A program made the translations under genes and the position numbers. DNA of 64,000 nucleotides, taken from positions 186,001-250,000 of the forward strand of contig NBIV01000075.1 in NCBI GenBank assembly GCA_003194525.1. Reading direction: 5' to 3'. The notes beneath the pieces were generated by a model. The model saw only the letters and a list, made by a program, of their open reading frames with translations. It had not been told where the DNA came from and did not search any database. The DNA comes from Gracilariopsis chorda (taxonomy: Eukaryota; Rhodophyta; Florideophyceae; Gracilariales; Gracilariaceae). Shown in pieces: positions 1 through 32,777 of this stretch. Numbering within the stretch: the first letter of the stretch is position 1; each line of letters starts with the position of its first letter.

Positions 1-1
1 T

Positions 2-4884: not shown

Positions 4885-5789
4885 TGAAGTGCAATCCTCA
4901 AGGAGGAAGACTCAGCGATGCCCTGTGGACTTGGTGCTTTTTTTGCCGCTTTCGCGTGTTTATGATTACTACCGCTATTAGCGGGTGTCTCAGCCCTCAG
5001 CGGATCCGCGCTGTGCGCCAGGTGCACACCTGTGCATTCGCCGTGTGCCGCCTAAGGCGTGAGTGGACCACGTGTGACACAGATAGTCAAGAGGAGGTTG
5101 GCACCACGGTGTGGACATTTGGTTAACTTATATTTATTATTCATTATTTATCTACGCTACAGTAAGGAGGTTACTACACTATATAGTGGCTCGGCGACCT
5201 CGCCCTGACACTGAGTAAACTTCCCCAGCCAGGGTTCTTGGCTCTAGGTCTTTTCCGCTTTCGCGAGTCTTCTACACTCCTCGGAGGTAAAGCCGCGTTA
5301 CTAACGGTAGACCTATCCACCCTGCGTCACTAGGAGTATCACCGCCTTGGGCACTTGTCACTTAATTCACCACCGCCGTGTTCTCGCCCCTGTATAGGGT
5401 TCCTTTGTACCTTTTTTCGTGGTCCCGTTGGCCCACACCCCCGTCGCCCCCAATCGGGCATCCCCCGTATTTCCCTTACCCCACTCTCGTGGTTCCTACC
5501 CCTTTGTGTGGTTGCTCGTCACCGCTGACGCGTGTCTCTCGTGCCGGTATCCCGTGACGTCTTCCCCCACTTACGTGGACTCGTACTACTTGGAAGGGCT
5601 GTTTTCCCATTCGTGGTGATCCTAATCCTACCGTTTCAACTCTCCCCGCTTGGCGTGAGGGTGAGCCTCGGCTTTACAACCGGACTTCGTCGTGCTCATC
5701 CGGAGAGGCTCCGTTCGCTGTGTTACCCTCCAGAGGGGAAGATTCCGAACGTCTTCGTGTGTTGTCCCGCTTGCGGGTATTGCACTACA
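4885..5789 (+). repeat. 5' LTR of E1
   Basis: The start (TGAAGTGCAATCCTCAAGG) matches the E2 LTR start (TGAAGTGCAACGCCCTCAGG), and later blocks align in order up to a CACTACA end just before the shared primer-binding site. Alignment with the E2 LTR is patchy and E1 is about 80 bp longer. Short C-arm/G-arm hairpins are frequent, for example CCGCTATTAGCGG (4972-4984) and CCCGCTTGCGGG (around 5767). Confidence 0.75.
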
Positions 5790-5792
5790 AAG

Positions 5793-5812
5793 TGGTCTCC
5801 CGACCTAGAATC
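5793..5812 (+). other. Primer-binding site of E1
   Basis: TGGTCTCCCGACCTAGAATC lies 3 nt after the inferred LTR end and is identical to the site in E2. It is the complement of a tRNA 3' end that would finish GGGAGACCA and shows T-loop-like bases further in. The tRNA cannot be named from this window. Confidence 0.75.
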
Positions 5813-5904
5813 GGAAACGGTTAGGTTTTGTATTACCGCTCCTCGGAGATTCACTGTCCAAACCTTTGGTTTCTTACCACTTCGTGGGATTTTTTGGTCT
5901 ACAC

Positions 5905-8019
5905 ATGTCTCGGCGACCATCCTCCGCCGAGCCCGTTGTCACGCGGAGTCGTTCCGTCAGTGACGTGGAACAGGCAGAGATCTCGAAGGTCCCCGCTGGC
6001 CACCCTCGACGTGCCACTTTGAAATGCAAGTCGAATGGCCAACACTCGTCGAGAGCCCAGAAACCCCCGCCTAAGGCGTTGAAGGACGCTCCCAACTCTG
6101 GTGTCGACCCGGCTTCTGCCGATGTAGCTGCACCCCGGAGGGGAGAACCCGATACCGACGCCCCCCCTAGTGTCCAAGCGCAGCTTGATGAGGTGCGTGA
6201 AGCACACAATACCCTCGTGGAGGAGTTTGAAGTCCTGCGTGTCAGGTTTGATAGCTCTTCTATGAAGGATTTGGCTGAGGACATTCGCCTTTTAAGGGCG
6301 GATGTCAACACTGTGTTGGAATGTTTTGGTGGTCCTGCCAAATATGTTGAGAATGTGGAAACCCGATTTGATCGTGTCAGTGCCCGTCTGAGGACGTTGG
6401 AGCAAACTATCTTGATGGATGACAACGTCAAGGGTGAGGCCGCTGCTGTCTCGCAAAAAGCGAAGCGCGAGAAGAAAGATTCTACCCGCCGCACTCGTAA
6501 GAAGCAACCCAAGCACGATCCCGACTCGTTGGATTCCTCCCTGTCTTCACAGGATTCTCACCATTCAGATGGTTCGGTGTCGTCGGATTCTTCGTCGGAC
6601 GATGATCGTCGCCGACGCCCGTCCCATTCTAAACGGTCTTCTTCCACCCAAGGTGTGATTCGCCCCCGGAGGAAGGGGAGGAAACACTTAGGATTGAGGG
6701 AACTCAAATGTACTAATCCCCTCTACAAGAGGTTGGTATCGTACCGATATTATCGGCTTGAGGACTCCTCATTGGATCGTACACCCCGTGGTACGGGTAA
6801 GGTGAAGGACTGCATAAAGCGTATGCAGGTTTCCCTTCGTAACCAGTCCTTTTCTGGAGAGGATCCCATATTGGTGTTAGACTTCCTCGGAAGGTTCGTT
6901 TCCGAAGCGGACATACTTGGTATGAACGAAGGACAGGCGTTTATTGCCCTACCGTATTTTCTACGTGGACTCGCCGAGGATCAATACAACTCTGTAAGAG
7001 GTTCTTCCCGAGCCTCCGAAGGAGGTGTAACGTGCTGGCCGGAAGCGGTTCAGTACCTCTTGCGATCCTACGCGACGAACAACGCTATTCAGGCGGCTAT
7101 TCTCGCTCTACGCGATACCTGCCAGAAATCTGGAGAGACGGAAACCGAATTCTCGGTACGCCTTAATAAGGCTTTCCACAGGTGTGGCAATGTTTACTCC
7201 TCTGGAGAGCGCTGCAACATGTACATCGATGGATTGGATCCGGCAATCCGTACGCTGGTGGCCCGATATCGGGAGGATCATCGTAACACCACCTACCTGG
7301 AGCTGATTCAACACGCGCAAGCGGAAGGTGATGCACTTCGAGCTCGTATCCCCGCATCGAAGTCTCGTCCCGCCAAGGCGTTGATGATGGAAGCCAGTTC
7401 ACCATCTTTCTCGCTAGCAGCAAGTGGAAGCCCTTCAAGGGACTAAGATAACGTGTACCTCGCTCAGGCCGGTGCTCAGTCTATTCCGACAACGGAACTG
7501 CCGTCCACGACGGATGCGTCCTACGACACAGCTCAGGAGAATTCCCTGCTGTATGTTGACGGACCCCGTGTTCACGGACCTCGCATTCCCTATGCGAATG
7601 GTGCCCTCCGGCAGAGTCGTCCCGGATGGAGGGATACCCGCCCAGTGGTGAGACACACGGATGCTCGTTCCGGTCAGCCGCCCCCACGCTCTGGAGTCAT
7701 ATGCCACATATGTTACGAACACGGTCACATTTCACCGGACTGCATCCTCACTTTGAGAGAAGTAACCCGAGTGATCAGTAACTATGAAGCCCTTACTCCA
7801 GCGGAGAAGCAGACCGTTCCGATTGCATCGTACTTACGAGCGAAGACGGACTTCCCCCGGAATATCCCGGATACGAACCCGCGACACACGTTGCTTTCCC
7901 CTGCTGAGCAGGTCACTAACCCCCATCTTGTTCGACAAGACACCCCCGCTAGCGCTCCACTGCTAGTGGTTCAGGATTCTGAGACCCCGCCTCAGGCGGA
8001 ACGGGCTCAGGAAAACTGA
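5905..8019 (+). pseudogene. E1 gag with one internal stop
   Basis: The frame starts at ATG 5905 and runs to TGA 8017-8019, broken only by TAA 7444-7446, where the E2 copy has a sense codon. The N-terminal half is a low-complexity charged region, then a coiled-coil-like stretch (about 6180-6420) and a Ser/Asp-rich linker. The retrotransposon gag core follows (about 6690-7350, with MYIDGLDPAIR near its end). A zinc knuckle CHICYEHGHISPDC, spacing C-x2-C-x4-H-x4-C, lies at about 7700-7742. Gag forms the virus-like particle and the knuckle binds element RNA. The ATG was chosen because E2 starts with the same MSR-type N-terminus. Confidence 0.85.
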
Positions 8020-8044
8020 TTTTGGGAGTCTCCCCTACGGGAGA
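8010..8044 (+). promoter_or_regulatory. Candidate -1 frameshift signal at the E1 gag/pol junction
   Basis: GGAAAAC (8010-8016) directly precedes the gag stop. Twelve nucleotides later comes the stem-loop TCTCCC-CTAC-GGGAGA (8029-8044). Pol is in the -1 frame and that frame is open through the heptamer. E2 has the same heptamer, the same 12-nt spacing and the same stem with another loop. The heptamer is not a classic X XXY YYZ site, so function is inference. Confidence 0.45.
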
Positions 8045-11000
8045 GGCGCCCTCAGAGTTGAGGTCGAAGGCGCCCGAGGCGTCACTGCCTCGCTCCCCGG
8101 TCAAAATCCTTACTAGGAAACAGGCCGTCTCAGACGTGAACTCTGAACACTTTAGTGTTCTGCGTCGACCGTGGAAACGTGTTCGAAACAACCGGTTCCC
8201 GGACAGAGTTTTGGTAATGGCCAAGACAAACTACAAGGTATATGCTGACCTTGGCCTTTCCACCCAGTTTATGGTGCGAGTTCTCACTGTTTTGGACACA
8301 GGTGCAGGCCCGAACTTCATCGTTGAGTCGCTCCTGCCACCGTCGTTGCAGTCTCAGATCCGCCATGGCGTGATACCGAATGTCGCGGATGCAAATGATA
8401 ACCCGTTATCAACGGTTGGGACAATCGACCTGGTCGTGCGCCTTGGCTCCTTTCTTGTGAAACTCAACTTTATTGTTTGTCGGAAACTTGCCGCCCCTTT
8501 GATCTTGGGATGCGACTTCTGTGACAGATTCGTCGATGCCATCAGGCCCCGTCTAAGACGTGTGGAAATGGAAGACGGCTCCTCCGTTTCGATCGTACGT
8601 CGTCCTCTACGACGTGCCTCGAAGAAACACGTTCCATTACCTGCTGCGCAGGAACCCCCACCGGCTTCCCGGGACTCTACAAAGCTCCTCGTTGCCGCGT
8701 CTGTCCAACTTCCACCGGAACCCCAAGTTTGGGTACGAGTCACGTCCCGTCAACACGGTTTACGAGTAATTCAACCCCTTTCATCCTTATATGATAGGTA
8801 TCAACTCGCCGTGGCGAATGGAGTAGCTCAAATTGAGCCCGATAAACCGTTCAACGTGCTGGTCGCCAATCTAGGCTCTACGCCCCAGTCACTGGTGAAA
8901 ACCCAAGTCATTGGTTCGGTAATGCCCCACCCCACCGCGATGGTTCCCACGAGAATGAACGCCGCCGATGTCCTCGGTCTCGTTCACTCTAAGAAGGGGG
9001 AGGACACTGCCGTCAAAATGCCCAAATGCTCGGATGCTAAGCCGGTTCCAACCAGTTACGACCGGATTGATCCCGTGAAAGAACTCGAGGAACTTGACCT
9101 CGGTCATGTGCCGGAATCGCACCGTGAACGTCTCCGTGAGATGCTACGGAATTTCACCACGATGTGGGATGGCTCCCTAGGGGAGATTACTACAACGGAG
9201 CACCGGATTGACTTGCTACCTGATACCAGGCCGATCGCTCAGCACCCCTATAGGGCAGGCCCTAAAGCTCGAGAAGAGGAAGAATTCCAAGTGGAAAAGA
9301 TGCTCCGAGCTGGAGTAATAGAACCGGCTCAGTCGCCGTGGGCATCCCCAGTGGTACTGGCTCCGAAACTGGGTGGATTCTGGCGCTTTTTCATCGACTA
9401 CCGTCGCCTGAACGCCGTAACCATCAAGGATGTGTACCCGATCCCACGAATGGATGAGTATATCGATTCACTCGGAAATGCTACCGTTTTCACGGCCCTA
9501 GACGCCAATTGGGGATACTGGCAGGTGCCCGTCAGGGAACAGGACCGCGACAAGACTGCTTTTGTCTGTCACTCCGGACTCTACCGTTTCAAACGGATTC
9601 CTTTCGGTTTGACCAATGCTCCCGCTACTTTCCAGCGTGCTATCGACATACTACTGGCTCGCTTCAAATGGCGTACATGCCTCGTCTACCTGGACGATAT
9701 CATAGTATTCTCAGATAATCTGGATGACCACCTCACACACGTGAAAGATATCATGACCACGCTACGTGAGGCTGGAGTTACTCTCAAGTTGAGGAAATGT
9801 GAGTTCTTTACAGATACAGTGAAGTATCTGGGCCCCATAATCCGCCCTGGGCGTGTGATGATCGAGGAAGCTCGAGTTAAGTCGCTCCGTCAAGCGAAGG
9901 AACCCGCCACTCAAACGGAACTGCGCTCCTTTCTAGGATTAGTCAACGTCTATCGACGGTTTATCCCGAATTGTGCAGATATCTCAGCACCCTTGAACGC
10001 GCTCTTGCGGAAAGGCCAACCACCGAAATTGGAACCCTTTACGTCCGTCGAGACGAAGGCGTTTAACTCCCTCAAGGAGGCTGTTACATCAGCACCGATA
10101 TTATCGTTACCGAAACCCGGACTACCGTTTACCGTAGACACGGATGCTAGTGACTACCAAGTAGGTTGCGCTCTCTTTCAGACAACTCCCGAAGGAGAAT
10201 GAACCCCTATTGGGTACTGGTCACGCTCACTGAATGTTCACGAGCGGAATTACTCCGTCTCGGAGAAATAGTGTCTTGCAGTTGTGTAGGCACTCTCCAC
10301 TCTCCGCCCCTATCTTATGGGTGTGCACTTCACTGTTTACACGGATCAATCGTCATTACGATGGCTCATGACAGTCTCTGAACCGTCAGGCCGCTTAATG
10401 CGTTGTAGGCTCCGCCTTGCGGAATTCGACTTCGAGGTGATCTACAAAAAGGGCACAAAGAACGCTCAGGCGGACGCGCTGTCGCGTTTATCCACGGATG
10501 GTGAAACTCTACCCGCTGGGGACGAGGACATTTCTTGCTTCGTCGTCGACAGTCGAGAACCGGAGAACCCGGACCGTGAACCCGATAACAAGGATGAAGA
10601 ACCGGAATCGGATGATGAACTGGACGCACTACTCGTCTCGGACGATGCTCAGAAACCCCCACCGGGTAATTTCGTGCCAATACCCCCGGAGGAGATGGTC
10701 AGAGAACAACAAGGTGATCTCTTCTGTACTCAGATTCGCGCCCGACTTAATGGCGGTGCGCAACTCCCTTTCGAGGTGAATGATGTTGGATACCTCGTCA
10801 AGACGGTTCAAACAACCCCACAGGTAGTGGTACCGCATACTCTACAATCTAGAGTGTTGCACTTGTCGCACTATGCGAAACTTGGTGGACACGCCGGTGG
10901 ACGGAAACTTTACCTCACGTTGCGACGGAGTTACTATTGGCCAGCCATGGCTGTGGACTGCTACGCGACTGTGTGGTCATGCACGGAGTGTGCCAAAAAC

Positions 11001-12770
11001 CGGGTCAAACTCCGGAAGCACTCAACGAAGTTGAAGTTATTCCCAGCACGGGCCCCTCTCGAGTTTGTCGCAATTGACCTCTTGGGACCGCTGCTCACCA
11101 CAAAGCGTGGACATAAGTTTTTACTCGTTATCACGGATCGTTTCTCCAAGTTGGTTCGCACCGTACCTTTACGGAAGATATCCGCTTTCGCGGTGGCGCA
11201 AGCCTTCGTCACCCATTGGGTATTTGTCTACGGACCACCAGTTAACATTCTATCCGATAACGAAAAGCAATTCGCATCGCGATTCTTTGAGGACGTGTGT
11301 CGGATTCTCGATATCAAGAATCTGTTCACAAAGACCTACCACCCCCAGTGTAATGGGCAAGTCGAGCGGTTTAAACGAACGCTGTTAGCCTCTCTCCGTT
11401 CTTACGTTGCTGATCACCCCAAAACATGGGACCTGTACACTGACGCCTTGACGTTTGCGTATAACACACAGGTACACCGTACATTGGGTTTGACTCCATT
11501 TGAATTGGTACTTTCGCGTCATCCGCCCGCCGTAGCGTTGGAACCTCAGCCTACGCTGGCAAACTTCCCTTCCGTGAAGGATTATCGCCAACGATGGAAA
11601 GCGTGGCTTACGAAGTTAATCCCGGTCGCCCGGAGCTCCATGGCACGAGCACAGGCCGCGTACAAGCGTGATTTTGACTCTCGTGTACGAGGTACAGCAC
11701 CGCCAATTACGGAGAGTGACTACGTCTTCTTCCGTAAGGAGCACTGGAACCCTGATAAGGAGAAACGGCATAAGCTCTCACCCGTCGCGGACGGTCCCTA
11801 CAAGGTCATATCAGTGGATAATGACACCTTAGTGGTGGAAATGAACGACGCTCATGAGCGGATTTCCCGCGATCGCGTTGTTATGGCACTGCCACCTTCC
11901 GTAGAGGTTGCTTACCAAGATGAGAACCAACACACCCCAGTGGAACAACCTACATCTGTGGTTAGCAGGCCTTCTGTGTTGCCACACCCTTCAAGGGGAC
12001 TCTCAGATATACCGTCCTTATCGGACGCAGGCCCGAATGGCCTTTCGTCTCTAACGCCACCGCGCGGTGTCTATCCCCGCAGTTTGGGCGCTTCTACCCC
12101 TCCCCATGCCGCTCCATCTAAGGAAGGGGAGGAGAACCCTAACTCTCGTCCAGAGACTGAAACCGCTTCGTCGCGTCATGACAACCGTGGTGCACGGACC
12201 TCAGGACACATCGAAAAGGACAATAGTGGACCGAGAATTCCGTCTACTGACGTGCCATCTACGCATTTGCGCGGTACAGCTCCGGCTGAACCCTCTCGAG
12301 GAATTTCTACCGCATCTGCGCCAGATCGCACTCCCCACCGGGATTCTAGTCGTCAAAATGCACCACGCAGTGGGAAGTCTCTCGCCAAAGTGAAATCGTT
12401 GCAGGAAACTATTTGCGTTCGCAATACTGAACCGGCTGTGCCGTCGAGCGTTGATCCGCATTCCGTGGGTCACGGTTCGTCAACAACAGCTACGCTGGAT
12501 AATGCAGAGCAGGCCCTCGCGGGATCCTCTGAGCCGACTACACCGGACGTGGTAACTCCTACTGCACGGCAGAACACACCGGCCAGGCCGGGCAAGCACA
12601 CCGTACAGGACGGAAGGAAAACGACCAGCAAGCTGGATTCTGGTTTAGGACCATCGCGCAGTCGCGAACTCACTCCGAGTGTCTCGGTTGATTCCGACAG
12701 TGTCGCCGAAGTCGCACCGGTCACTCTGGAAGGAAAGCACGTCAAAGACGGAAATACTTCGTCGCCGCTT
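8022..12770 (+). pseudogene. E1 pol: protease, reverse transcriptase, RNase H, integrase
   Basis: One frame carries the whole polyprotein. Domains: aspartic protease (VLDTGAGPNF, about 8289-8318); reverse transcriptase (IPFGLTNAPATF, then YLDDII, about 9685-9705); RNase H (VDTDASDYQVG, about 10132); integrase with H-H-C-C zinc region (10860-11000), core acidic residues in AIDLLGP, LSDNEKQF and QCNGQVERF (11070-11370) and a GPY/F-like module (about 11790). Three stops fall close together in RNase H (TGA at 10200, then two TAG before 10295); E2 has arginine, glutamate and tryptophan codons there. The C-terminal tail is proline/serine-rich. No chromodomain remains. An ORF continues to 12908 by reading through the intron-like sequence, which is probably chance. 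Confidence 0.88.
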
Positions 12771-12771
12771 C

Positions 12772-12841
12772 GTATGTGTTTTGTTTCTTACTTAATCTAC
12801 GTTGTTGAAATTACATCTATTCACTGTTTTCTTTGTTCCAG
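12772..12841 (+). other. Intron-like segment at the E1/host junction
   Basis: The segment starts GTATGTG, has a possible branch region (CTTACTTAATC), a pyrimidine-rich 3' part and ends TTCTTTGTTCCAG, followed by coding-like sequence. It is 70 nt long. It marks the right edge of recognisable E1 sequence and probably belonged to the downstream gene. Confidence 0.45.
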
Positions 12842-15340
12842 GTGTTGTGGGGATCAACTGCATGCCTTGCAACATGAGCACGGAGCAAGCTACATCAACC
12901 GGCGGTAAGGAATTTACATCGTTGTATACTTCGTCCCACTCGAGTGTAGGAATTAAGACTAACGAATATCATGTGTTGCACATTACTGCGATAGACGCTG
13001 AACACATTCGGATTTTGCAACGCGAATGGCGTATTAGGAAGCGCAAAGAGCTTGAGGAGAAGAAGCGTAGGAAGAAGCTTAGAAAAATGAAGTCATCTCA
13101 GCATGATCCACGAGTTCAAGATTTGCGCGCCGAGGATATAAAAGTTGATATCATGTCACTACAACCTTCCAGATCTCATGTTGGCCGTCCATTTGGTACG
13201 AATGCAGTTCAAACACCCCCTAGCACATCCGACACTTTGCACGTGGGTGCCACCGATGTTGGAAGGGGATCACAAGGTGCGCCACACTATGACCTGCATC
13301 AAGATGAAAAGGAACAAAACGTACCACAAAAGTTTACGCCACAGATGTCCCATTATGAGGATTCTCGGCAAGAACCAGATGCATTGTCTCATTCAGTGCT
13401 GTACGCCAGCTGTGAACTTGGACAGCACTCTATCTCTTCACCATCCAACAAAGCAAACATCATTTCTCCTGGCATGCCGTCTTGTTTGCCAATGTCTCAG
13501 GAAATCGAAGACAGAGACGGTCAGATTGCCCAGAGGCCTGGGCCGTTCGCACATGAGTCCAGGTTTCGCAATCCAGACGGCAATAAGAAGAAGCAGACCA
13601 ATAGCACTGCATCATCGCATCGGTCCAATACGATTCAGTTCTTCTTCACAGATTCAATGGATGACTTTGCAGCTATCACGGGCGACGAATCAACCGTTTT
13701 AAGCGCTCAGAACCCCGTAGATATCCCAGGGTGTCCAGCGGTGCGCAATACTTGGAATGGTCTTGCCAGCGAAGAAGCCCATCTTCCAGAAGAGGAGCTG
13801 GAAAGATTCTATGGGCGAGAACAAACGTAAACAACGGGCAATGAGACCAGCGAGGTCATCGAGTTCCAGAAGAGGAGGCAAGAGATTAGAAATCATGCGG
13901 GGCCAATCCTGTATTGCTCAGGTGGTGCAAGTTTTGCCCTCAAGTTCTTCCCTTCAGGCAAGCGTAAGTTCATCCACAGCCCCGAGTATAGACATCAAGT
14001 TTCAAGTTTCATCCACCCTGCCTACTACTCACGGATCTGAGCATGTACAGGTATCATCTCCCATGATCGTCTCTGTTGGAAAAGGCTCAATCGATGTATC
14101 AACATCGGAACCAACGTCTGCACCCAGTACGATCGCGAGTTCTGTGCCGTAGTGTATACCTGGAATCATTCGTCAATACGCGTCCCCTCATCCATGGCAG
14201 TAGACGTTTTCGCCGAACTATCCACTTGATCTGCATCCGGTTCTTTTCATGTAACGGCGAATGGATCTTATACGGGAGTTGATCCACTGTCGCTGAATTT
14301 CTTGCATGAAGACATAAGTGCTAGCACGTCTGAAACAGTGCAGCAGCAGATTGTAATCGCCGCAACAGCGGTGAATGTTGTAGCATAAGATGGAGGTGGC
14401 ATCAACTTACACACATCTGCACCGCATGTCGCGAAGAACAACATGGTACTGGCAGGGACTACTTGGGGTGCATCGGCGGTGCCCTATGCCTGCGCAGCAG
14501 CGTGCGCTACTAGAAACAGCCTCTTGGCAGAATGAAAACAGAGATGTCACGGAAGAGTGGTTCAAGATCTTTCAATCTGCGCTAATGAGCATGAAACTAC
14601 TTCAGAAACAAGATGATCGCTAGTAGATCAGACTCCAAGCAAAGCAGGTCCCGAGAAGGGTGAATCTCGTACCCCAAATGAGAGCGAAGGTGACACCATT
14701 GTCGAAGAACAGAACAACAAACACTGTTCAAAACTAAGCATTTGTCTCAGGCTTGTGCAAAGAGCTAGGGGTTCCACGGCCGCCCATGAAGCTAAGAACA
14801 GACTTCCGTAGGTGGAAGAATAGGAACAAGAAGGCAGGCGGGTGAGCAGTGGAAGAAAATTAAGACAACCTGTGAAAAGCAACTTGAAGATCCTGTACAA
14901 ACGTTATACGAAGGTGGAAAGGATGATCTTGCTAACTGCGTGACATATCAGGGTGTTGCGGGCATTGCGGATCAGCAGATATTTGGAATCACTGCCCTGG
15001 CACATGGTGCGCAATCAGCACAAGGGGATGGTACCGTTGGTACATATGGTTGTGAAATGATGTTTCTGAACTTTTGGATGCACAGGTAGGAAAAGTAATG
15101 AGAGCAGTAGAGAAGTTGGTGGCTAGTAGGAGTATCTCTAGGGCACCCTGCCGATTGTAGCTCTTGGTCAGAACCGTTTTGACAGGGTTTGCGGTTCTAC
15201 AGGAGGTTAGAGAGTACTTCGGTGGCGTTGGCCCAGAAGGGATAGCCATTTTGTCAAATGGAGTCAGGTTTCCACTGAGTGCCTTCAACGAGTTGTGGGT
15301 ATCTGAAGCGAACCGTTATCTTTTGTACCGTTCGTAATGT
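12842..15340 (+). pseudogene. Decayed unidentified host gene, several frame changes
   Basis: Coding-like sequence runs through three frames. Frame one (12842-13830) has a basic stretch rich in K, R and E (about 13010-13095, REWRIRKRKELEEKKRR) followed by Ser/Pro/Gln-rich sequence. A second frame continues to 14152 (Ser-rich). Further pieces include SLNFLHEDISASTSETVQQQ-type sequence (about 14290), LEDPVQTLYEGGKDDLANC (about 14890-14950) and EYFGGVGPEGIAILSNG (about 15210-15260). Stops and frame changes separate them. I do not recognise the family. The composition suggests one long, largely disordered protein with a more ordered C-terminal part, now a pseudogene, possibly broken by E1. Confidence 0.4.
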
Positions 15341-22740: not shown

Positions 22741-23170
22741 GAGGTATGGAATAAACTGGAGTCTACCTACAACAAGGACAAAATACAATCCGAGTTGAAC
22801 CTTCGCCAAAATCTAAGCAACTTGAAATTCAAGGATGGCGACGACATACAGAGACATTTGCTAGAGCTGGATACAACCTAATTAGAACTTGCTAGACTAG
22901 GTGACCCACTCACGGACAAGGAGCGAACTGCGACTTTGCTTCGCCCCTTGCCGGACTCATTAATGGCAATCACACTGTAGGAGTACGCAGACAACATAGA
23001 ATACGATCAAGTCATTTTGCTTGTGCGATCTGAAATGGATCGACGTATTCACTGGGCTTCTACACCTACAACAAAAATCACAGCCGCCAAGAAACATGGC
23101 AGTCACCCTTACCACGCTTCGAAGAAGTCTACAACCCGTTGCAAGCAGCGTGCAAAAGGGAAAGAAAAGG
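22741..23170 (+). pseudogene. Ty1/copia gag relic, left part, interrupted by E2
   Basis: One frame with two stops reads like a UBN2-type copia gag: EVWNKLESTYNKDK, then LNLRQNLSNLKFKDGDD, LGDPLTDKERTATLLRPLPD and a basic stretch ending KQRAKGKEK at the E2 insertion point. The missing zinc knuckle follows directly after E2 at 32785. The frame may extend left to about 22650. The leader and 5' LTR are not identified. Confidence 0.7.
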
Positions 23171-23995
23171 TGAAGTGCAACGCCCTCAGGGAGGGATTGT
23201 TGGTACTTGAATGCTTTCCCGATATTATCGGTTGTGTAGTGTGTATATGAACTACGCCCCACAATAGTGGGTATGGACACGTGGGACACGGTTTTGGGTC
23301 AGTTGGCGGTTGGCCACAGTAGTGGATGTTGCCACGAATGTGGAGTATTTGAGTTGATTTTATTTATTATTTTCACACCCATTTCTGGGAAGCTAGTACT
23401 TAGTGCGACGGCGCACTGCCGTCGCACCAGTACACCTTCCCCAACAAGGGACCCCAACCTGGGGAATTGGCTCTATTTGTTACCGCTTGCGCGCGTGCTC
23501 TACTCCTCCTTGGAGGGAAACGCCGTGAACCACGGGACATCTAACCCCCTTGCACATCTAAAGGGACCCATCAATGGGAGTCATATTGTTCCAATTGAAT
23601 TGGTGTTTCGCCCTGTATAGGGATATTGTTACCGGCATCGCCGTTCGCCCCCGTCGCTCTCGCGACTCACTTCGTCCTCTCTTCCTCCTCTTCGCCCTTC
23701 CTTCTTCCCCTTTTTAGGGTAGCACCTCCCGCTATCTGCGGCCCTCGTGTGCGCATCTGCTCACACACCCCCACTTACGTGGAAACCTACCTCTGGCGAG
23801 GACGCATTCCCGCTCTCGCGGATACCGATTCTTGTCCTAAACCCTCTTGCGCTAGTCGCAAAGGGTGGTCTCGGTCTTACAAACCGGCTCCGCCGTGCCA
23901 CCCCTAGAGGGGCTCTACCCAACTGGGTTCACCTCCACGGAGGAAAGATCCCGAACGTCTTTCGGTGGTTCTCCCCTTTGAGGCGTTGCACCACA
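23171..23995 (+). repeat. 5' LTR of E2
   Basis: 825 bp, starts TGAAGTGCAACG and ends GCACCACA (TG...CA). It contains at least sixteen short stem-loops, for example CCGATA-T-TATCGG (23219-23231), CCCAC-AATA-GTGGG (23258-23271), GCGACGGC-GCACT-GCCGTCGC (23405-23425), CCCCAACCTGGGG (23452-23464), CCTCC-TT-GGAGG (23505-23516), CCCT-GTAT-AGGG (23611-23622), CCGC-TATCT-GCGG (23729-23741), CCCC-TAGA-GGGG (23901-23912) and CCTCC-AC-GGAGG (23932-23943). Confidence 0.93.
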
Positions 23996-23998
23996 AAG

Positions 23999-24018
23999 TG
24001 GTCTCCCGACCTAGAATC
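23999..24018 (+). other. Primer-binding site of E2
   Basis: TGGTCTCCCGACCTAGAATC begins 3 nt after the LTR and is identical to the E1 site, as expected for minus-strand DNA priming by the same tRNA. Confidence 0.8.
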
Positions 24019-24100
24019 GGTTTTTGTTTTCCCTTGTACGAGGTTTGTTTTCATTCACCGGAAGTTCCGTGATCGTTTCCCGTCGTAACAGTATGTTCTC

Positions 24101-26275
24101 ATGTCGAGAAATCCCTCCGATGCGGAGCCAGTGGTGACGCGTAGTCGCTCCCGCGACAATGCGGACACTTCCGAAGTTCGGTTTGTACCCCGTATCCCTA
24201 TACGGACAAGTTGCAGCCGTGCTGGCGCCGCTTCCTTGCGGAATGATACCCCCGACCGGGAACCCCGGAACCTCCTTTTGCCCTCGTTATCACCCCCGCA
24301 GGGGAATGCAGCATGAACTCCGGCTGTTGCCGCAGTGCCCCAGGCACCCCAGTCTGCTCCCGCTGTCGCAGCTTCAAGCCCCCGTGGAACGGGCGATAAC
24401 ACCCCCCAGGGGACTTCCCTGGAATCCCAGGTCCGCGCTCTGTGGACCGCCCATGACACCCTTGTAGGGGAACTAAAATCCCTCCAAGAGGTGGTCTTGG
24501 TAACCCTCGTAAAGGAGGTTGCCGAGGAACTCCGTATTTTATGGTCTGACTTCAACTCCGTGTTGGAGAGTTTGGGACAACCCGCCACCTCCATCGAAGG
24601 AGTTGAAGCCCGATTTGATCGGATTGGTGCCTGCCTGGAGACGCTGGAGCAGTTCGTCCTCATGGACAAACCATCCCCGGATGATCCAGTAAACGAGGCA
24701 TCGCACAACGATCAGCTCGCTGGGAAGAAGAAACGCCGTCATTGACGGAAGCACCAGCGAAAATATTCGGACTCTGATTCTTCGACATCCTTGGACTCAT
24801 CCCGAAACCATTCGGTTAGCTCGAGCTCCTCGGACTCCGACTCGGAGGACGAGAAGCGAGGCTACTCCTCCCACTCGAAGCGGTCATCGGCCACTGAAGG
24901 TGTGATCCGAACCCGCCAGAAGGGGAGAAGACACCCCGGTCTACGGGAATTGAAACTGACAAACCCGGATTACCGGAAGCTTTTATCATACCGGTACTAC
25001 CGGCTCAAGGATTCGTCACTTGGACGTACGCCCCGTGGTACGGGAAAGGTGGGAGAATGTATTAAGCGAATGCAGCTCTCGCTCCGCAACCATTATTTTA
25101 CTGGAGAGGAACCAGTCCTGGTACTGAACTTCTTATGCTGCTTCGTAGCGGAGGCCGATATCCTCGGTATGAATGAGGCACAAGCCTATTTGGCTTTACC
25201 GTATTTCCTACGGGGAGTGGCGGAGGACCAATACAACTCTGTCAGAGGATCTTCTCGTGCCTCCGAGGGAGGGGTTACTTGCTGGCCGGAGGCTGTGCAG
25301 TATCTTCTGCGCTCTTACGCCACAAACACCGCTATTCAGCAGGCTATCCTCGCTTTAGGAGATGCACGCCAGCGTGCTGGAGAGACCGAGATCGATTACT
25401 CGGTGCGCCTTAACAAGGCTTTCTACAGATGTGGTAACGTATACCCCGCTGGGGAGCGCAGTACCATGTTCATCGATGGTCTTGACCCGGCAATCCGGAG
25501 TTTAGTTACCCGTTATTGGGAGGACAAGCGGAGGATCACCTATCTCGAGCTGGTCCAACACACTCGAGCGGAAGGGGATGCACTTCGTGCAAGAACTCCG
25601 AGCAATCGGTCTAAATCCGCCAAGGCGTTGTTGCTAGAAAGCGAAGCTTCCTCACTCCCGCTCACTGCGGATGGGAACCCTGGACAGGGATTTGATACCG
25701 TGCATTTAGTGCAGGAGGATGGTGTGTCGATTCCCACCAGTGATTTGCCGTCGGCGACGGAGATGACCCGTGATACGGGAACAGAAGATCCCGTTCTATA
25801 CGGTGGTAACGGTCGGGTCCAACCCCAACCACTCCCGTTTTCAAACGGTCATTCCCGTTATCAACGGCCTGGATGGACTGACACCCGCCCTGCGGTTTGC
25901 TTCTCTAATACTTGGAATAATAATCCGCGTGTCGCGGTGTTGGCTCTCATTTGGCACCTTTGTTATGCCCATGGCCATACCTCGCCTCAGTGTATCTTCT
26001 CACTGAAGCATATGGCCAAGGTGGTGGCAAACTACGAGGCCCTCACTCCAGATGAGAAACGTTCCGTCCCAATAGCTTCCTACCTCCGTGCTAAAACGGA
26101 CTTTTCCCATGCCCTACCACAGACCCCGCGTGCGCGGCAAGCTTCATACACCCCGATTCGGGAGATCACGCAACCATTCGTTGCACACCCCGCTTATGCG
26201 GATAGAAACCCCCGTCAACGGGATGAAGCACTCGTTGTCGAGGAACTCAACCCACCGCCGAAGGCGGAAAACTAA
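24101..26275 (+). pseudogene. E2 gag with two internal stops
   Basis: ATG 24101 (MSRNPSDAEPVVTRSRS) matches the E1 gag start. The same frame continues through TGA 24314-24316 and TGA 24743-24745 to TAA 26273-26275. Order as in E1: disordered basic N-terminus, coiled-coil-like segment (about 24420-24660), Ser/Asp-rich linker, gag core (about 24950-25620, with MFIDGLDPAIR), then a knuckle region HLCYAHGHTSPQC (about 25950-25990). The first cysteine expected two residues before the second is tryptophan here (LIWHLC), so the knuckle is damaged relative to E1. Confidence 0.85.
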
Positions 26276-26300
26276 CTGAGAGAGTCTCCCCTTTGGGAGA
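26266..26300 (+). promoter_or_regulatory. Candidate -1 frameshift signal at the E2 gag/pol junction
   Basis: GGAAAAC (26266-26272) abuts the gag stop TAA. After 12 nt comes TCTCCC-CTTT-GGGAGA (26285-26300). Pol is in the -1 frame. The layout matches E1 base for base in heptamer, spacing and stem, while the spacer and loop have changed. Confidence 0.45.
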
Positions 26301-29300
26301 GGCGTCCTCAGACAAGAGGCTGTTGGCGCCCTAGGCGTCCTCGCCTCGCTCCCGGGTGAAAGTCCTCTCGAGGAAAGACACCGCCGACGCGAACTCTGCG
26401 CACCTCGGTGTGTTGCGTCGCCCGTGGATACAGAGTAAAAATCCCCGGATTCCCGGTAGAGTTTTGGTCTTGGCCAAGCGCGGTTACAAGGTCTATGCCG
26501 ACCCTGGCCTTGATCCCCAGTTTATGGTGAGGTTTCTCACCGTCCTGGATACAGGTGCAGGCCCCAACTTTGTTGTGGAATCATTGTTACTCCCGCTTGT
26601 GTGGTCTGGTATCCGCTCTGACGCGGTCCCCGACGTTTTGGATGCGAACAACCATCCGTTACAAACGGTGGGCACAGTGGACCTCTTCGTGAGACTTGGT
26701 ACCTCTGTGGTGAAGTTGGACTTCATCGTTTGCCGTTCATTGGCAGCACCAGTCATACTGGGATGCGACTACTGCGACAGATTTGACGACGCAGTCAGGC
26801 GCCGCCTCAGGCGTGTAGAACTTGACGACGGATCGTCGGTTCCGATTGTTCGCCGCCCGCTAAAGCGGTCCTCTCGGAAACAAGTTCCGCTCCCTGCTGC
26901 GCAGAAACCATCGCCCGCGTCCCGCGAGTCCACTAAACTCCGCGTCGCTGCCTCGGTTTCTATACCACCTGAGTCCCAAGTCTGGGTGCAGGTAAATTCC
27001 CGTCAACACGGTCTTCGGGTTATACAACCCCTCGCCTCGTTGTACAAGAAATCCCAGCTGGCGCGGGCTAATGGAATTGTCTCCATTACCCCGGAAGTTC
27101 CTTTCCGGATATTGGTTGCCAACCTTGGCAAACACCCCCAGTATCTGGTAAAACACCAAGTAATTGGGAGTGTAACCCCCCATCCTATGGGAATGCTGCC
27201 AACGAAGATGACAGCCGCCGATGTACTCGGAGTTACTACCTCTTCTGAGGAGTTTGCCCCACCGTCCGAAGACGTCAAGTCTAAGGAGGGGTAGGAAACC
27301 GCTACTTCAGCGTCGAACACACCGAGTAACTCGGAATTGCGAACCACACCTGTTCCACAGGACAATGCTCCATCGAGCAACGACCAGATTGATCCGGAAA
27401 AGGCACTTGAAACGCTAGACTTCAGCCACGTGCCAGAGTCGCACCGCGACAAACTCCGTACAATGTTACGGGAATTCACCACAATGTGGGATGGCTCACT
27501 TGGCGAGATTAATGCAACGGAACACCGGATCGATTTATTCCCCGGTGCGCGACCGGTTGCACAACCTTACAGGGCAGGTCCGAAAGCTCGGGAAGAGGAG
27601 CAGTCCCAAGTAGACAAGATGCTCTGCGCAGGTGTGATTGAGCCCGCTCATTCACCCTGGGCATCCCCAGTTGTACTGGCTTTGAAGGCCGACGGAACCT
27701 GGAGGTTCTGTGTCGAATACCGCCGGCTCAATGCCGTGACTGTTAGGGACACGTACCCTATCCCTCGTATGGACGAGTGTATTGACTCCCTCGGAGACGC
27801 CACCGTTTTCACGGCTCTCGATGCCAATTGGGGATATTGGCAAGTACCTGTCAGACAGGAGGATCGCGACAAAACCGCATTCACCTGCCACGCAGGAACG
27901 TACCGCTTCAAGCGGATGCCATTTTGGTTAACCAACGCCCCCGCCACCTTTCAGCGTGCAGAAGATATTCTACTCAACCGCTTTAAGTGGCGGAGTTGTC
28001 TGGTCTACCTTGATGATATTATCATCTTCTCCAACTCGTTGGAGAACCATCTAACCCACGTCCGAGACGTGCTGACCGTACTCCGCGATGCGGGAATTAA
28101 CCTCAAGTTGAGGAAACGCGAGTTTTACACAGATAATGTGAAGTATCTGGGTCACATTATCCGTCCTGGACGGTTAGCGATCGAGAAAGCTCGAGTCAAA
28201 TCCCTCGTTGAGGCGAAAGTGCCCCGTACTCAAACGGAACTGCACTCCTTTTGGGGCTGGTCAACGTCTATCGACGGTTTATCCCGAACTCTTCGGATAC
28301 CGCGGCACCCCTGAACGCGTTGTTGCGAAAGGGGAACCCCCCAAAACTGGGAACATTTACGCCCGAGCAATCGGAAGCCCTTACCTCCTTGAAGGAGGCT
28401 GCCAAATCAGCACCAATCCTACATCTCCCAAAACTCGGGTTGCCATACTCCGTAGATACGGACTAGAGCGACTACCAAGTCGGGTGTGCTCTTTTTCAAA
28501 CCACCCCCGATGGGGAACGACACCCAATTGGTTATTGGTCGCGCTCGCTCAATGTTCATGAGCGGAACTACTCCGTATCGGAGAAAGAGTGCCTCGCAGT
28601 CGTATGGGTGATGACCACTCTGTGCCCCTACCTTATGGGAGTTCACTTCACCGTGTACACGGATCATTCCTCATTGAGGTGGTTAATGAATATCTCCGAT
28701 CCGTCGGGACGCCTCATGCGCTGGAGACTCCGCCTCGCGGAATATGACTTTCAAGTCATTTATTAAAAGAGCGCGCAGAACACCCAAGCCGACGCCCTCT
28801 CGCGTTTACCCACAAGTGGGGAAGCACTCCCAACGGAGGATGATGAAGTCCCATGTTTCATGGCCATAGACCAGAATGATCCGGGATGTGCCGTCGAGGC
28901 TGGGCCAGAAAACTGGGACGAGGATGCTGACTTTGACGAAGTACTCGCATCGCGAGATGAATCTGAGAACCCGTTACCGGGAAACTTTGTACCGGTATCA
29001 CGGGAAGAAATGATCCGAGAACAATTCGGCGACCCATTCTGTACGAGGGTTCGTGTCCATGTCAACGGTGGTGAAGATCTTCCTTTCGGGGTAAACGACA
29101 AAGGCTACCTAGTAAGGAAGGTCGAAGCCCGCCCACAGATTGTGGTACCTCATTCCCTGCAGTCGTGGGTGTTACATCTATCACACTACGCCCCCATTGG
29201 AGGTCACCCAGGTAGGAGGAAACTCTACCTAACCCCGCGAAGGGATTTCTATTGGCCCGCCATGGCGGTGGATTGCTACGCAACCGTGCGGTTTCGTAGC

Positions 29301-31697
29301 GAATGCGTGAATAATCGCGTGAAACTCCGCAAAAATGCGAAGAAGATGAAACTATTCCCCGCAAGGGCGCCGCTCGAGTTTATCGTGATCGATATTCTCG
29401 GACCACTACTCACCACGAAACGTGGAAACAAGTTTCTACTTGTCATTACCGACCGCTTTTCTAAGCTGGTACGGACTGTCCCTCTTCGGAGGATAACCGC
29501 TCTCACGGTGGCCCAGACTCTGGTGACGCACTGGATTTTCGTCTACGGTCCCCCTGTGGAGGTGCTATCTGATAAGGGGAAACAATTCGCGAGCAAGTTC
29601 TTCCAATATGTTTGTCGCATCCTGGATGTCAAGAACTTGTTCACGACTACCTACCACCCCCAATGTAATGGGAAAGTTGAACGGTTTAACCGGACGTTAC
29701 TCGCGGCGTTACGTTCCTACGTCGCAGACCACCCAAAGAACTGGGACATGTACGCTGATGCATTAACCTACGCGTACAACACGCAGGTACACCGGACTAC
29801 CGGAGTTTCGCCATTCGAGTTAGTTCTATCTAGAACACCCCCGCCTGTGGCGCTGGAACCCCAAGCTACCTTGGACAATTTCCCATCAGTGGGTATCTAC
29901 CGGCAGGAATGGAAGCAATGGCTTTCCAAGCTGGTCCCCGCTGCGCAGAAGTCTATGGCACGGGCCCAAGCCGCTTACAAGCGGGATTTTGATGCTCGCT
30001 TGCGAGGGAAACCGTCCCCGATTCGGACGAAAAACTACGTCTTCATCAGGAACGAGTACTACAACCCGGAAGGCGAGAAGCTCCATAAACTCTCGCCTGT
30101 GGCGGATGGACCATTCAAGGTCATCTCTGTGAACACCGACACTGTCGTGGTAGAGATGGGCGACACGGACGAACGGATTTCCCGTCATCGTGTTGACCTT
30201 GCCCCTCCTCCCTCGTCAGAGGTAGTCCTGGATCCAGGCAACCCCGTTTCTACGGACTCTGCAACACCGGAATCATCCCAGAGTACTAGGCCTACGGTAC
30301 TACCACACCCCAGCCGGGGACTCTCAGACCTACCGACCCTGTGGGACTCACCGGCTCAGCCGGGTAATTCGGGCCTCTCAGCGCCCGCCCCTACCACGCC
30401 CGCCCCCCTGGCGCGAATTTATACCCGCTAGGCGGGGACTTTTATCCCTTATCCCGCCGCTCTGTCTAAGGAGGGGGAGGAGAGCACTCGTTTTCGAGGA
30501 ACGATATCGCCGTCGCAACGGGAAACACGGAACATACGGAACACTGACGGTGGAGCACGGAGTATGTCACATGACACTAATCCCCCGTTCTTGGGCAGTG
30601 CTGCGCAACAACAATCAGACGCGCAGGCCCCGCAAAAGCGGCAATTATACCGTGCTACACGGGAGGTTGAAGCGCAACTACCGCACACCCCTGTCAGGGA
30701 AGGATCCCCGATACGTGAGTATGGTGACGATCGCCCCCAATCCCCTGAGCAGAGCGACGCATCGAAGCCGCCATTGACGGAAGCCCCCGCTCCGGGGAAT
30801 AATTTGCGCCAGCGTCCGCAACGCTGCGGCGAAGAACCGAGGAACTCGGGAAAAACGCGCGCCATCGCACGCTCGAAACCGGTCGTACCGGACGCTGCCA
30901 TTCCTCATGGAGACGGTGCACCGCGCTAAGCGGCAAGGCCCCTGAAAAGGTGTCATCGGCAACTGCCCGGCACCCCCCAAAGGGGAATTTTACCCACAAT
31001 GCCGGTGTAGCGGAGTTAGCCTTAGGCAACCCCCCAGAAGCCGGGGACACCACGGCACAGCCGGAACGTATGGCAGAGAACGCTCGTGACCCCCCAGGGG
31101 AGGCGGAACGCTTACCAATCACCGTGGCGCACGGGACACCGCAGGGGATGTCGCAAACGTCGTTCCCGCATATGCGGGAAAGACCCCGCAAGCTCGCGGT
31201 TCGCGAAGAAGACCGCCCTCGCGGAGTTCAAGTCCCCCTCCGACTGGTGGTTCGCCCGGCCTACCGTGATGACGGGAGCGACGACGCCCCTCTGGGGAAT
31301 AACTTGGCGGTGAAAACCATGACGCCAAACCCTCTTGAGGGATATTCTCCCGCACGAGCAGCGGCCGCTACCACAGCGCACGGCAACGCCGGAGTTATCG
31401 CCGACCACCATGATAAGGGACATTATACCGCACCGCGGGCAACCCTCACAAGGGAATACAACCACCACCCAGCACGGCCGGCAGGTCTACGAACGAGAGT
31501 TCGTAGTAGACCGACTGGTCGGACACACCTGGGACCAGGATGGTATTCTACAATACTGCGTCCGCTGGTACGGGTATGACCCCAATGGGGAGACGTGGGA
31601 GCCAATCGAACACCTCCCACGGTCGCAGGTCGTGCGATACCACCGTCAAACGGGAACTGCAGCTCCAGCCACGCTGGTAAATGCCCAAGTTGGGTAA
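26281..31697 (+). pseudogene. E2 pol: protease, RT, RNase H, integrase, chromodomain
   Basis: Protease VLDTGAGPNF (about 26547), reverse transcriptase with YLDDII (about 28008-28025), RNase H (around 28455), integrase zinc region (29170-29310) and core (IDILGP, LSDKGKQF, QCNGKVERF, about 29388-29690), GPF-like module (about 30105), long Pro-rich tail, and a chromodomain at about 31485-31660 (EFVVDRLVGHTW, YCVRWYGYDP, TWEPIEHLP). Breaks: TAG at 26329, TAG at 27292, a 1-base loss near 28253 that changes frame, TAG at 28464, TAA near 28765, TAG at 30429 and TAA at 30927. The RT motif reads MPFWLTNAP, with tryptophan for the usual glycine. Chromodomains steer integration to marked chromatin in this clade. 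Confidence 0.88.
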
Positions 31698-31942
31698 CGT
31701 TGCCGCACGAGCGGAGGGCGATAGGAAAGAATAACAAGGCAAGGTCCGTCGAAGACGGGGAACTCAAACGAGAATCACCGTTCTAAACGGGAAAGTATAT
31801 TAAAGGGAGCAGGTAGCTCCCCAAAACACTATACTACACTAGCTGGCTATGCCAGGAAAGAAGAACCGGAGAGCGCGCACGCGTTTTTATCACCCATTTT
31901 CCTCTGGGAATCCTCCGCGTCCGCTGTCTATTTCCCGTCTCA

Positions 31943-31950
31943 GGGGGGGA
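31943..31950 (+). other. Polypurine tract of E2
   Basis: GGGGGGGA followed by TA sits immediately before the 3' LTR start at 31953, the expected place for the plus-strand primer. Confidence 0.7.
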
Positions 31951-31952
31951 TA

Positions 31953-32777
31953 TGAAGTGCAACGCCCTCAGGGAGGGATTGTTGGTACTTGAATGCTTTC
32001 GCGATATTATCGGTTGTGTAGTGTGTATATGAACTACGCCCCACAATAGTGGGTATGGACACGTGGGACACGGTTTTGGGTCAATTGGCGGTTGGCCACA
32101 GTAGTGGATGTTGCCACGAATGTGGAGTATTTGAGTTGATTTTATTTATTATTTTCACACCCATTTCTGGGAAACTAGTACTTAGTGCGACGGCGCACTG
32201 CCGTCGCACCAGTAAACCTTCCCCAACAAGGGACCCCAACCTGGGGAATTGGCTCTAGTTGTTACCGCTTGCGCGCGTGATCTACTCTTCCTTGGAGGGA
32301 AACGCCGTGAACCACGGGACATCTAACCCCCTTGCACATCTAAAGGGACCCATCACTGGGAGTCATATTATTCCAATTGCATTGGTGTTTCGCCCTGTAT
32401 AGGGATATTGTTACCGGCATCGTCGTTCGCCCCTGTCGCTCTCGCGACTCACTTCGTCCTCTCTTCCTCCTCTTCGCCCTTCCTTCTTCCCCTTTTTAGG
32501 GTAGCACCTCCCGCTATCTGCGGCCCTCGTGTGCGCATCCGCTCACACACCCCCACTTACGTGGAAACCTACCTCTGGCGAGGACGCATTCCTGCTCTCG
32601 CGGATATCGATTCTTGTCCTAAACCCTCTTGCGCTAGTCGCGAAGGGTGGCCTTGGTCTTACAAACCGGTTCCGCCGTGCCACCCCTAGAGGGGCTCTAC
32701 CCAACTGGGTTCACCTCCACGGAGGAAAGATCCCGAACGTCTTTCAGTGTTTCTCCCCTTTGGCGCGTTGCACCACA
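31953..32777 (+). repeat. 3' LTR of E2
   Basis: 825 bp, the same length as the 5' LTR with no net indel. Differences are single bases, many of them transitions. Some stem changes give G-U-compatible pairs in RNA, for example CCGC to CTGC opposite GCGG near 32592. Others weaken a stem. Confidence 0.93.

Follow-up and report, generated by a model that had tools for sequence, protein, structure and literature searches.

Short hairpins arrayed along two Ty3/gypsy elements of Gracilariopsis chorda resemble a repeated binding signal

E1 and E2, two related elements in a 64,000-nucleotide stretch of the Gracilariopsis chorda genome, hereafter the window, are Ty3/gypsy elements, and both are densely packed with short stem-loops. 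An earlier note on this DNA had proposed that the elements are under selection for many local hairpins, a proposal that is supported by codon-preserving shuffles, by the conservation of stems in all pairwise comparisons and among shared as opposed to private variants, by compensatory changes, and by a distant relative, L048. The array looks like a repeated binding signal, which would be unusual for such elements; the target would be the single-stranded RNA or cDNA of the element, with dispersed binding sites that are perhaps occupied by Gag.

Both elements lie on the forward strand; the host genome measures 91 Mb. E2 (23171..32777) is bounded by a 5′ LTR (23171..23995) and a 3′ LTR (31953..32777) that are 97.2% identical, and it has the TG...CA ends and short target-site duplication of an LTR retrotransposon, the latter being the 5-bp AAAGG at 23166-23170 and 32778-32782. 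A primer-binding-site-like stretch (TGG...) follows the 5′ LTR at 23999..24020, as it does in E1, and a purine tract (31942..31950) adjoins the 3′ LTR on its upstream side, both as read from the sequence. The gag frame of E2 occupies 24746..26275, stop to stop, and the pol region (26335..30431) is open in pieces at 26335-27294, 27295-28314, and 28767-30431. The related element E1 (4885..12770) carries a sparser array. Its 5′ LTR (4885..5789, repeat family D11) has a related LTR at locus L031, and no second E1 LTR is among the repeats listed for the window. The first part of the E1 gag frame (5809..7446) ends at an in-frame stop, after which the same frame continues to 8019 and contains a CCHC pattern. 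In E1 pol, a reverse transcriptase part (8022..10202; PF00078, E 2.9e-35) precedes an RNase H and integrase part (10317..12770; PF17921, PF00665), the order of Ty3/gypsy elements. No chromodomain was matched in a Pfam search of E1 10317-12905; PF00385 (E 9.2e-09) is present in the E2-family copy L034, which marks that copy as a chromovirus. The gag-pol order, the chromodomain of L034, the LTRs, and the 5-bp target duplication are shared with chromodomain Ty3/gypsy elements at large, whereas the hairpin array and an antisense gene set the elements described here apart. Translations of the gag frames of E1, E3, and L048 contain a CCHC pattern, and that of E2 in the window contains a degenerate zinc knuckle. 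PF03732 is listed for 17 of 45 relatives and not for the E2 gag frame at 24746..26275 itself.

Perfect stems of at least 4 bp with loops of 2-6 nt number 403 in E2 compared with 168.0 in 60 dinucleotide shuffles (z 18.4) and 286 in E1 compared with 138.2 (z 13.6), an excess stronger than the earlier note had stated. Stems whose 5′ arm contains CC and whose 3′ arm contains GG account for 225 in E2 (47.1 in dinucleotide shuffles) and 114 in E1 (29.1), and the reverse class for 76 (46.0) and 48 (30.5), respectively. When only the strict classes are counted (5 bp + 3 nt, 4 + 4, and 4 + 3), CC-first hairpins amount to 153 versus 10.1 in E2 and 56 versus 5.8 in E1, and the GG-first mirror class stays near chance (10 versus 10.0 and 9 versus 6.2). 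Both elements are thus enriched as had been described, but E1, at 7.1 strict CC-first hairpins per kb, is roughly half as dense as E2, at 15.9. The density rises and falls stepwise at the element ends, and stems of any type cover 31% of E2. The array spans the LTRs, gag, and pol, plus an antisense gene that is absent from the E2 of the window. Codon-preserving shuffles gave an excess of z 6.1 to 17.5 in all 11 element segments, with CC-first counts of 28 versus 2.7 in E2 gag and 18 versus 2.5 in the first part of E1 gag; the corresponding hairpin counts are 17 versus 3.4 in the reverse transcriptase part and 18 versus 3.8 in the RNase H and integrase part of E1 pol. Eighteen hairpins fall within the first 828 bases of E2, at the non-coding 5′ LTR. 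Base composition as the cause is ruled out by the dinucleotide shuffles, and coding constraint by the codon-preserving shuffles together with the hairpins in LTRs. No Rfam family reached its gathering score in 4885-32800. The folding energy of a 900-nt stretch of E2 reached z -3.85, compared with 0.05 in one control stretch (20 shuffles each); in 600-nt folds, the mean pairing probability of the hairpins was only 0.32, or 0.63 when the span was limited to 30 nt.

The hairpins conform to a module of 10-13 nt in total, with a 4-5-bp stem and a loop of 3-4 (5) nt. The stems of 4-6 bp and loops of 2-5 nt first described hold within this range, but 6-bp CC-first stems are almost absent, and loops of 1-2 nt occur as often as chance would add an extra inner pair. 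Similarly, CC...GG stems are enriched, but the CC is limited to the outermost two positions and the inner arm is not CC. Representative hairpins of 5 bp + 3 nt are found at 23452..23464 in E2 and 10253..10265 in E1, which were among the five examples cited originally; all five exist at their positions, although that at 8145-8160 is not CC-first. The size of the module appears to be fixed, because a sixth pair is avoided and pairs outside the stem are depleted: a sixth pair extends 6 of 100 triloop stems of 5 bp compared with about 25 expected (4/60 in E2 and 2/40 in E1; p 1.2e-6 against 0.25), and Watson-Crick pairs stand immediately outside the stem in 13 of 222 cases compared with 52.9 expected. 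In two other stretches, a sixth pair was present in 4/12 and 4/13 such stems. Tetraloop stems show no such avoidance, a fifth pair occurring at the chance rate (33/130 and 18/83).

Inner pairing halts at a 3-nt loop, the next inner pair forming in 22-31% of cases wherever the loop would fall below this minimum, which favours a strand folded on itself over a site in duplex form and agrees with the local RNA or single-stranded DNA form suggested at the outset. Palindromes with outer CC/GG could also serve a dimeric protein as binding sites on duplex DNA; with inner arms that vary yet must pair, pairing that stops at the loop minimum, and polar flanks in E2, such a protein is highly improbable. 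GG-first and CC-first stems are equally stable by nearest-neighbour stacking. Only the CC-first stems are enriched, which suggests that recognition, rather than stability, determines the rule. Genome-scale ordered RNA structure (GORS), a thermodynamic property of some RNA viruses, may be comparable in the excess folding energy of E2, to judge from one 900-nt stretch, but differs in that E1 and E2 favour neither longer stems nor GG-first ones; a structure ruled by stability, with neither stem-length nor outer-pair rules, does not describe these elements. The limited stem length, the coverage of the whole element, and the lack of such an array in Copia loci and in two further gypsy loci of the genome, which would make it an adaptation of these elements, are compatible with hairpins that shield the transcript from small-RNA silencing or nucleases and are kept short because long duplexes are sensed. 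This form of evasion is unlikely, as it leaves unexplained the exclusive enrichment of CC-first stems and the cut between 5 and 6 bp, and stems of any type cover less than a third of E2.

Regular spacing was not found (CV 0.94 versus 0.99, near random), but no hairpins in E2 lie within 3 nt of each other, compared with 9.4 expected. Codon-phase locking is absent from one pol ORF (23/24/22), and the phases in E1 gag are uneven (1/5/10). Avoidance of exposed GG was ruled out, the observed/expected ratio of free GG being 0.91-1.02 in five sequences.

Hairpins had been described as oriented on the coding strand. This does not apply to the stems, because CC...GG is its own reverse complement and CC-first is no strand property; polarity is confined to the flanks in E2. 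Among 40 hairpins from the E2 LTR and the L021 antisense region, 25 have an A after GG, compared with 4 of 40 for the mirror T before CC (p 1.5e-6). The preference is weaker in L034, a second copy of the antisense region (9/20 and 4/20), and was not observed in E1 coding hairpins (19/51 versus 164/358 for other GG). G.U pairs on the plus strand are little above chance (GT 13 versus 12.7, TG 25 versus 12.9), a level that is unusual for ordinary RNA helices. The nearly strict Watson-Crick pairing, and inner mismatches that most often correspond to G.T on the minus strand (CA 58 versus 14.3 and AC 27 versus 13.9, in a partly redundant set), would fit a functional form that is single-stranded minus-strand cDNA, with hairpins that compact or protect this intermediate or are recognised by integrase or reverse transcriptase. 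Private mutations, however, share the same bias (G>A + T>C 97 versus C>T + A>G 62), so that decay may create those mismatches, and the difference shrinks in non-overlapping counts (19 versus 8 in E2, 24 versus 15 in L034); the cDNA form is quite unlikely.

In each of 12 pairwise comparisons, stems are less changed than free sites. Shared derived changes affect 6/400 stem, 11/138 loop, and 140/2773 free positions, and private changes 33/400, 9/138, and 300/2773, respectively; in 16 E2-type LTRs, 24 of 155 stem columns hold shared variants compared with 138 of 544 free columns. Private mutations of E2 thus strike stems at about the normal rate while stems vary least between lineages, which indicates that the constraint acts in propagating elements and rules out mutational cold spots for E2. 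The LTRs of E1 have few private changes in stems as well (4/58 versus 147/770), and E1 alone would not reject cold spots. Where both sides of a stem have changed, pairing is kept in 25 of 40 cases (1/3 expected, p 1.5e-4). The 5 bp + 3 nt LTR hairpin at 23219..23231 has a counterpart in a related LTR whose inner pair differs on both sides and still pairs, and the 4 bp + 4 nt hairpin at 23611..23622 likewise has a compensatory change in a related LTR. Perfect arms and compensatory changes, in coding and non-coding regions alike, could be written by a mutational process without function, such as fold-back template switching during reverse transcription. Arm correction of this kind predicts double changes about as frequent as reversions, but stems are mostly unchanged, as the shared derived counts show, and they change little at each of the three codon positions; the size limit would require extra assumptions. 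Template switching is, on this evidence, decidedly unlikely.

The host genes of the window had been said to look different, and eight other ORFs there indeed contain 0-5 strict hairpins each. The hairpin density of E1 and E2 thus matches neither shuffled controls nor host genes, a match that would have counted against the earlier proposal. In four neighbouring stretches, stems of at least 4 bp occur at 0.99 to 1.38 times their own shuffles, but 33000-50400 shows an excess of CC..GG stems (93 versus 43.6) and 52001-64000 of strict CC-first hairpins (11 versus 3.8), and the background is therefore not perfectly clean. Elsewhere in the genome, a single hairpin was counted over the roughly 30 kb of eight Copia loci, and two further gypsy loci contain 0.9 to 1.3 per kb. 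Among 200 one-kb windows from 20 sampled 10-kb stretches, 45 have at least 8 CC-first hairpins and 141 have 0-2. These three samples rule out that the array is a genome-wide feature or one common to all transposons. The search for other copies that had been advised found matches to E1/E2 of at least 80 bases in 8 of the 20 stretches, and a piece of the E2 LTR used as a query gave 1,643 candidate matches, of which 40 were scored. The relative L048, from another record, has a Gag 35% identical and an excess of 5 + 3 hairpins over codon shuffles (gag 15 versus 3.3, pol 8 versus 1.2). It lacks the CC rule (CC 11 versus 3.2, GG 15 versus 3.0) and clear avoidance of a sixth pair (5/27); the supposed rule of recognition has therefore not been conserved. 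Scans of viral contigs found no relative.

In E2-type copies, the antisense gene (540 aa in L021) lies after pol and ahead of the 3′ LTR, and four homologs of its protein were found (Gracilariopsis, Gracilaria, and two further contigs; 7,998 candidates scored). This protein could be a dedicated factor for which the hairpins are sites, in a transcriptional or nuclear-export role. Its 243-aa L034 version has no Pfam domain, the structure model is poor (pLDDT 38), and nucleic-acid binding is hypothetical, making such a factor very unlikely. The plant Retand elements (PMC11963269) have an antisense ORF in the same position but are described as non-chromoviruses; the 243-aa protein has no match in Pfam.

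Dispersed binding sites for one protein are the reading that we tentatively prefer. E1, E2, and their kin would constitute a Ty3/gypsy clade with a dense mini-hairpin array on a single-stranded form, in units of 11-13 nt with 4-5 bp and a loop of 3-4 nt and, in Gracilariopsis chorda, a C-G/C-G base and unpaired flanks. Each hairpin would be a weak, repeated site for a protein whose pocket has a fixed size, the likeliest candidate being the Gag of the element itself, with its zinc knuckle, acting on genomic RNA, and many sites may jointly mark, coat, and compact the nucleic acid for packaging. Both the binding and the partner are proposed from sequence comparisons. MS2 and STNV are known systems with dispersed RNA packaging signals. 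It is debated whether genomes are packaged via numerous weak stem-loops scattered along them, one reason being the small number and degeneracy of the sites proposed. In enterovirus-E, as PMC7793301 describes, many degenerate short sites across the genome have affinity for the virus's own coat protein, and many are conserved among variants. Similar to these, E1 and E2 have many short sites spread over one genome, here under a common rule, but binding was measured in enterovirus-E and is only inferred here. Unlike viral packaging signals, the hairpins number about 15 per kb in E2, are bounded by CC/GG, have an upper size limit, and reside in a retrotransposon. Among the papers listed in literature searches, nothing resembled the array, in agreement with the original remark that no described gypsy family is known to have one.

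Possibly, the clade bears a second, length-ruled structural code, with more than 100 hairpins of 11-13 nt per copy at most, that serves as a mark of self-identity for one putative reader and drifts between hosts as reader and sites co-evolve. The code so conceived is selected, limited in stem length, and specific at its base, and lies over LTRs, gag, pol, and the antisense gene alike; its drift would be seen in hairpins that are CC-bounded in Gracilariopsis and unbounded in L048. A strong constraint beyond protein coding overlies gag and pol, and the array provides a sequence-only mark of the clade and a means of searching for the putative reader protein. With a signal so dense and so sharply ruled in size, loop, and outer pairs, the loss, gain, and co-evolution of sites would be readable from many copies.

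All five mini-hairpins quoted in the earlier note are present at their places in E1 (4885-12770) and E2 (23171-32777), the Ty3/gypsy elements of the window, and the high hairpin density read there from sequence alone is confirmed. Both elements contain more perfect stems (4 bp or longer, loops of 2-6 nt) than expected from 60 dinucleotide shuffles (E1, 286 versus 138.2; E2, 403 versus 168.0). Most of the excess is due to stems whose 5′ arm carries CC (114 versus 29.1 and 225 versus 47.1); the reverse class contributes less (48 versus 30.5 and 76 versus 46.0). For strict hairpins, with stem and loop of 5 bp and 3 nt, 4 and 4, or 4 and 3, E2 contains 153 that open with CC (10.1 expected) and 10 that open with GG (10.0 expected), and E1 contains 56 (5.8) and 9 (6.2), respectively. 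The outer rule is looser in E1, where stems opening with CA, CC, CG, CT, or TC are all raised. In 1-kb bins, the density of stems with outermost CC steps at the ends of both elements, with 11 to 23 per bin in E2, 4 to 11 in E1, and 0-4 in the remaining bins. The background is not fully clean: CC..GG stems number 93 versus 43.6 expected at 33000-50400, and strict CC-first hairpins 11 versus 3.8 at 52001-64000. At 36001-46000, CC-first (13 versus 5.9) and GG-first hairpins (11 versus 6.1) are similarly frequent, and thus there is no CC preference.

Coding constraint as the cause of the hairpins is ruled out by codon-preserving shuffles (200 per segment), against which all 11 element segments tested give z values of 6.1 to 17.5, including an antisense ORF with 23 hairpins versus 5.3 expected. 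As the earlier note had stated for what it called host genes, seven of the window's eight other ORFs, one of the eight being part of another gypsy, carry 0-2 hairpins; the exception is 58447-59625 (5 versus 1.0 expected).

The excess spans loops of about 1-6 nt and peaks at 3-4. Among E2 stems with outermost CC, the stem and loop combinations (4,4), (5,3), (4,3), and (3,4) occur 50, 35, 28, and 33 times versus 4, 1, 4, and 13 expected, but (6,3) occurs 0 times, (6,4) once, and (5,4) 6 times versus 1. Loops of 1-2 nt also lie above shuffles, as in (5,2) with 17 versus 1, at the frequency of a chance extra inner pair: for total lengths of 10, 11, 12, and 13, an inner pair leaving a loop below 3 nt is found in 15/48, 8/36, 17/67, and 11/46. 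A loop minimum of 3 nt is the rule of a folding single strand. At the outer end, five-pair triloop stems with any outer bases have a sixth pair in 4/60 cases in E2 and 2/40 in E1; the corresponding values are 4/12 and 4/13 for two stretches outside these elements and 5/27 for L048, a relative in another record. A fifth pair on tetraloop stems is not avoided, occurring at chance level (33/130, 18/83). Immediately beyond the CC/GG base of 222 hairpins, Watson-Crick pairs number 13 versus 52.9 expected, a deficit that for C-G pairs is partly a product of how nested hairpins were picked; A-T and T-A pairs alone number 11 versus 37.6. Folding of 900 nt of E2 yields a z of -3.85 (control stretch, 0.05). 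In 600-nt folds, the mean pairing probability of hairpin stems is only 0.32, and local or assisted folding must therefore be assumed.

Orientation on the coding strand, also claimed in that note, fails for the stems, since perfect CC...GG stems are strand-symmetric, though the flanks in E2 are polar. Plus-strand G.U pairs are barely above chance. The excess of C.A mismatches may reflect decay, since private changes, seen in one copy, lean to G>A and T>C (97 versus 62) and changes shared by several copies do not (51 versus 54). An A directly follows GG in 11/18 E2 LTR hairpins and a T directly precedes CC in 2/18; for the antisense-region hairpins of two E2-type copies, the values are 14/22 and 2/22 in L021 and 9/20 and 4/20 in L034. 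As the antisense gene is encoded on the opposite strand, flank polarity follows the element. It is not seen for A after GG in E1 coding hairpins (19/51).

E2-type elements carry this antisense gene between pol and the 3′ LTR, in one frame of up to 540 aa, on the minus strand of L021 (2807-4429), L034 (6838-7569), and, in pieces, a third copy, L024 (4828-6451). The window's E2 lacks this stretch. Among 7,998 candidates scored, four homologs of the protein reach E<=0.001, from Gracilariopsis, Gracilaria domingensis, and two further contigs; the L034 version has no Pfam match.

CC-first stems diverge less than free sites, those outside stems and loops, in 12/12 pairwise comparisons, and loops diverge more than free sites in 9/12. 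Between E2 and the copies L022 (92.5% identical), L021, and L034, divergence is 3.2, 3.9, and 4.8% in stems, 12.7, 21.1, and 12.9% in loops, and 7.9, 11.0, and 8.3% at free sites, respectively. At third codon positions of E2-type copies, stems differ by 2.6%, loops by 6.0%, and the remaining sites by 7.9%; coding-frame loops are thus no more variable than other sites. Because picking perfect stems in one copy biases pairwise divergence, variants were split into shared and private. In 16 E2-type LTRs, with 13 mixed columns left out, shared variants occupy 24/155 stem, 27/66 loop, and 138/544 free columns, and private variants per column are 0.34, 0.27, and 0.27. In 11 E1-type LTRs, the shared counts are 0/58, 1/25, and 26/770, and the private counts 4/58, 7/25, and 147/770, stems being low here too. 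Polarized with outgroups within E2, and with stems defined from E2 alone, shared derived changes number 6/400 in stems, 11/138 in loops, and 140/2773 at free sites, and private changes 33/400, 9/138, and 300/2773. Where both sides of an E2 stem have changed, pairing is kept in 25/40 cases (1/3 expected; p 1.5e-4), in comparisons that all include E2 and so are not independent.

In the 91.3-Mb genome, pieces of the E1 and E2 LTRs have 219 and 1,643 candidate matches, 40 of each being scored. Across 20 sampled 10-kb stretches, 45/200 one-kb windows contain at least 8 CC-first hairpins and 141/200 contain 0-2. Eight Copia loci (about 30 kb) hold one hairpin in total. The gypsy at 38487-40726 (minus strand), with an RT up to 54% identical to that of E2, has about one hairpin per kb and lies in the 36001-46000 stretch without CC preference; this element, which lacks the array, is a possible outgroup. 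The array is weak in E3, a third related family (L032:6304-10000), with 15 strict CC-first hairpins versus 2.5 expected and 6 GG-first versus 2.4 at L032:6001-10000.

Elsewhere in the window, positions 1-4884 mirror the E1/E2 rule, with 13 strict GG-first hairpins versus 1.8 expected, and a 457-bp tandem duplication (1.9 copies) at 2258-3150 carries several GG-first mini-hairpins. A 9-bp tandem array at 19096-19412 (35.6 copies) lies inside antisense frames and yields Pro/Gln/Ala-rich repeats. A near-identical direct repeat at 56100-58376 and 61715-64000, ~5.6 kb apart and reaching the window end, is possibly a recent duplication or the LTR pair of another element.

Gag relatives number 45 among 7,995 candidates scored, Agarophyton chilense included. 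Outside this genome, DNA was recovered for one relative only, L048 (1-4100; Gag 35% identical), a gypsy fragment on a 4.1-kb contig of a bacterial MAG record, Robiginitomaculum, presumably eukaryotic contamination. Its 4-bp stems with loops of 2 to 9 nt number 19, 56, 32, 44, 20, 25, 19, and 27 versus about 17 each, and hairpins of 5 bp and 3 nt exceed codon shuffles in gag (15 versus 3.3) and pol (8 versus 1.2). Since CC-first and GG-first hairpins are about equal here, the small-hairpin array seems, from this one relative, to be older than the CC rule.

Hairpin arrays of this kind in LTR elements were not found described in the literature covered, which comprised titles and the starts of abstracts, most subscription papers lying outside it. 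The hairpins would be read by a protein with a fixed pocket. Gag would be the first candidate, because the hairpins span the whole element and Gag coats element RNA, and the antisense-gene protein the second; alternatively, the hairpins may serve evasion of silencing or may function in the cDNA. The hairpin itself is a size-limited folded module that is kept in the propagating lineages of these elements.
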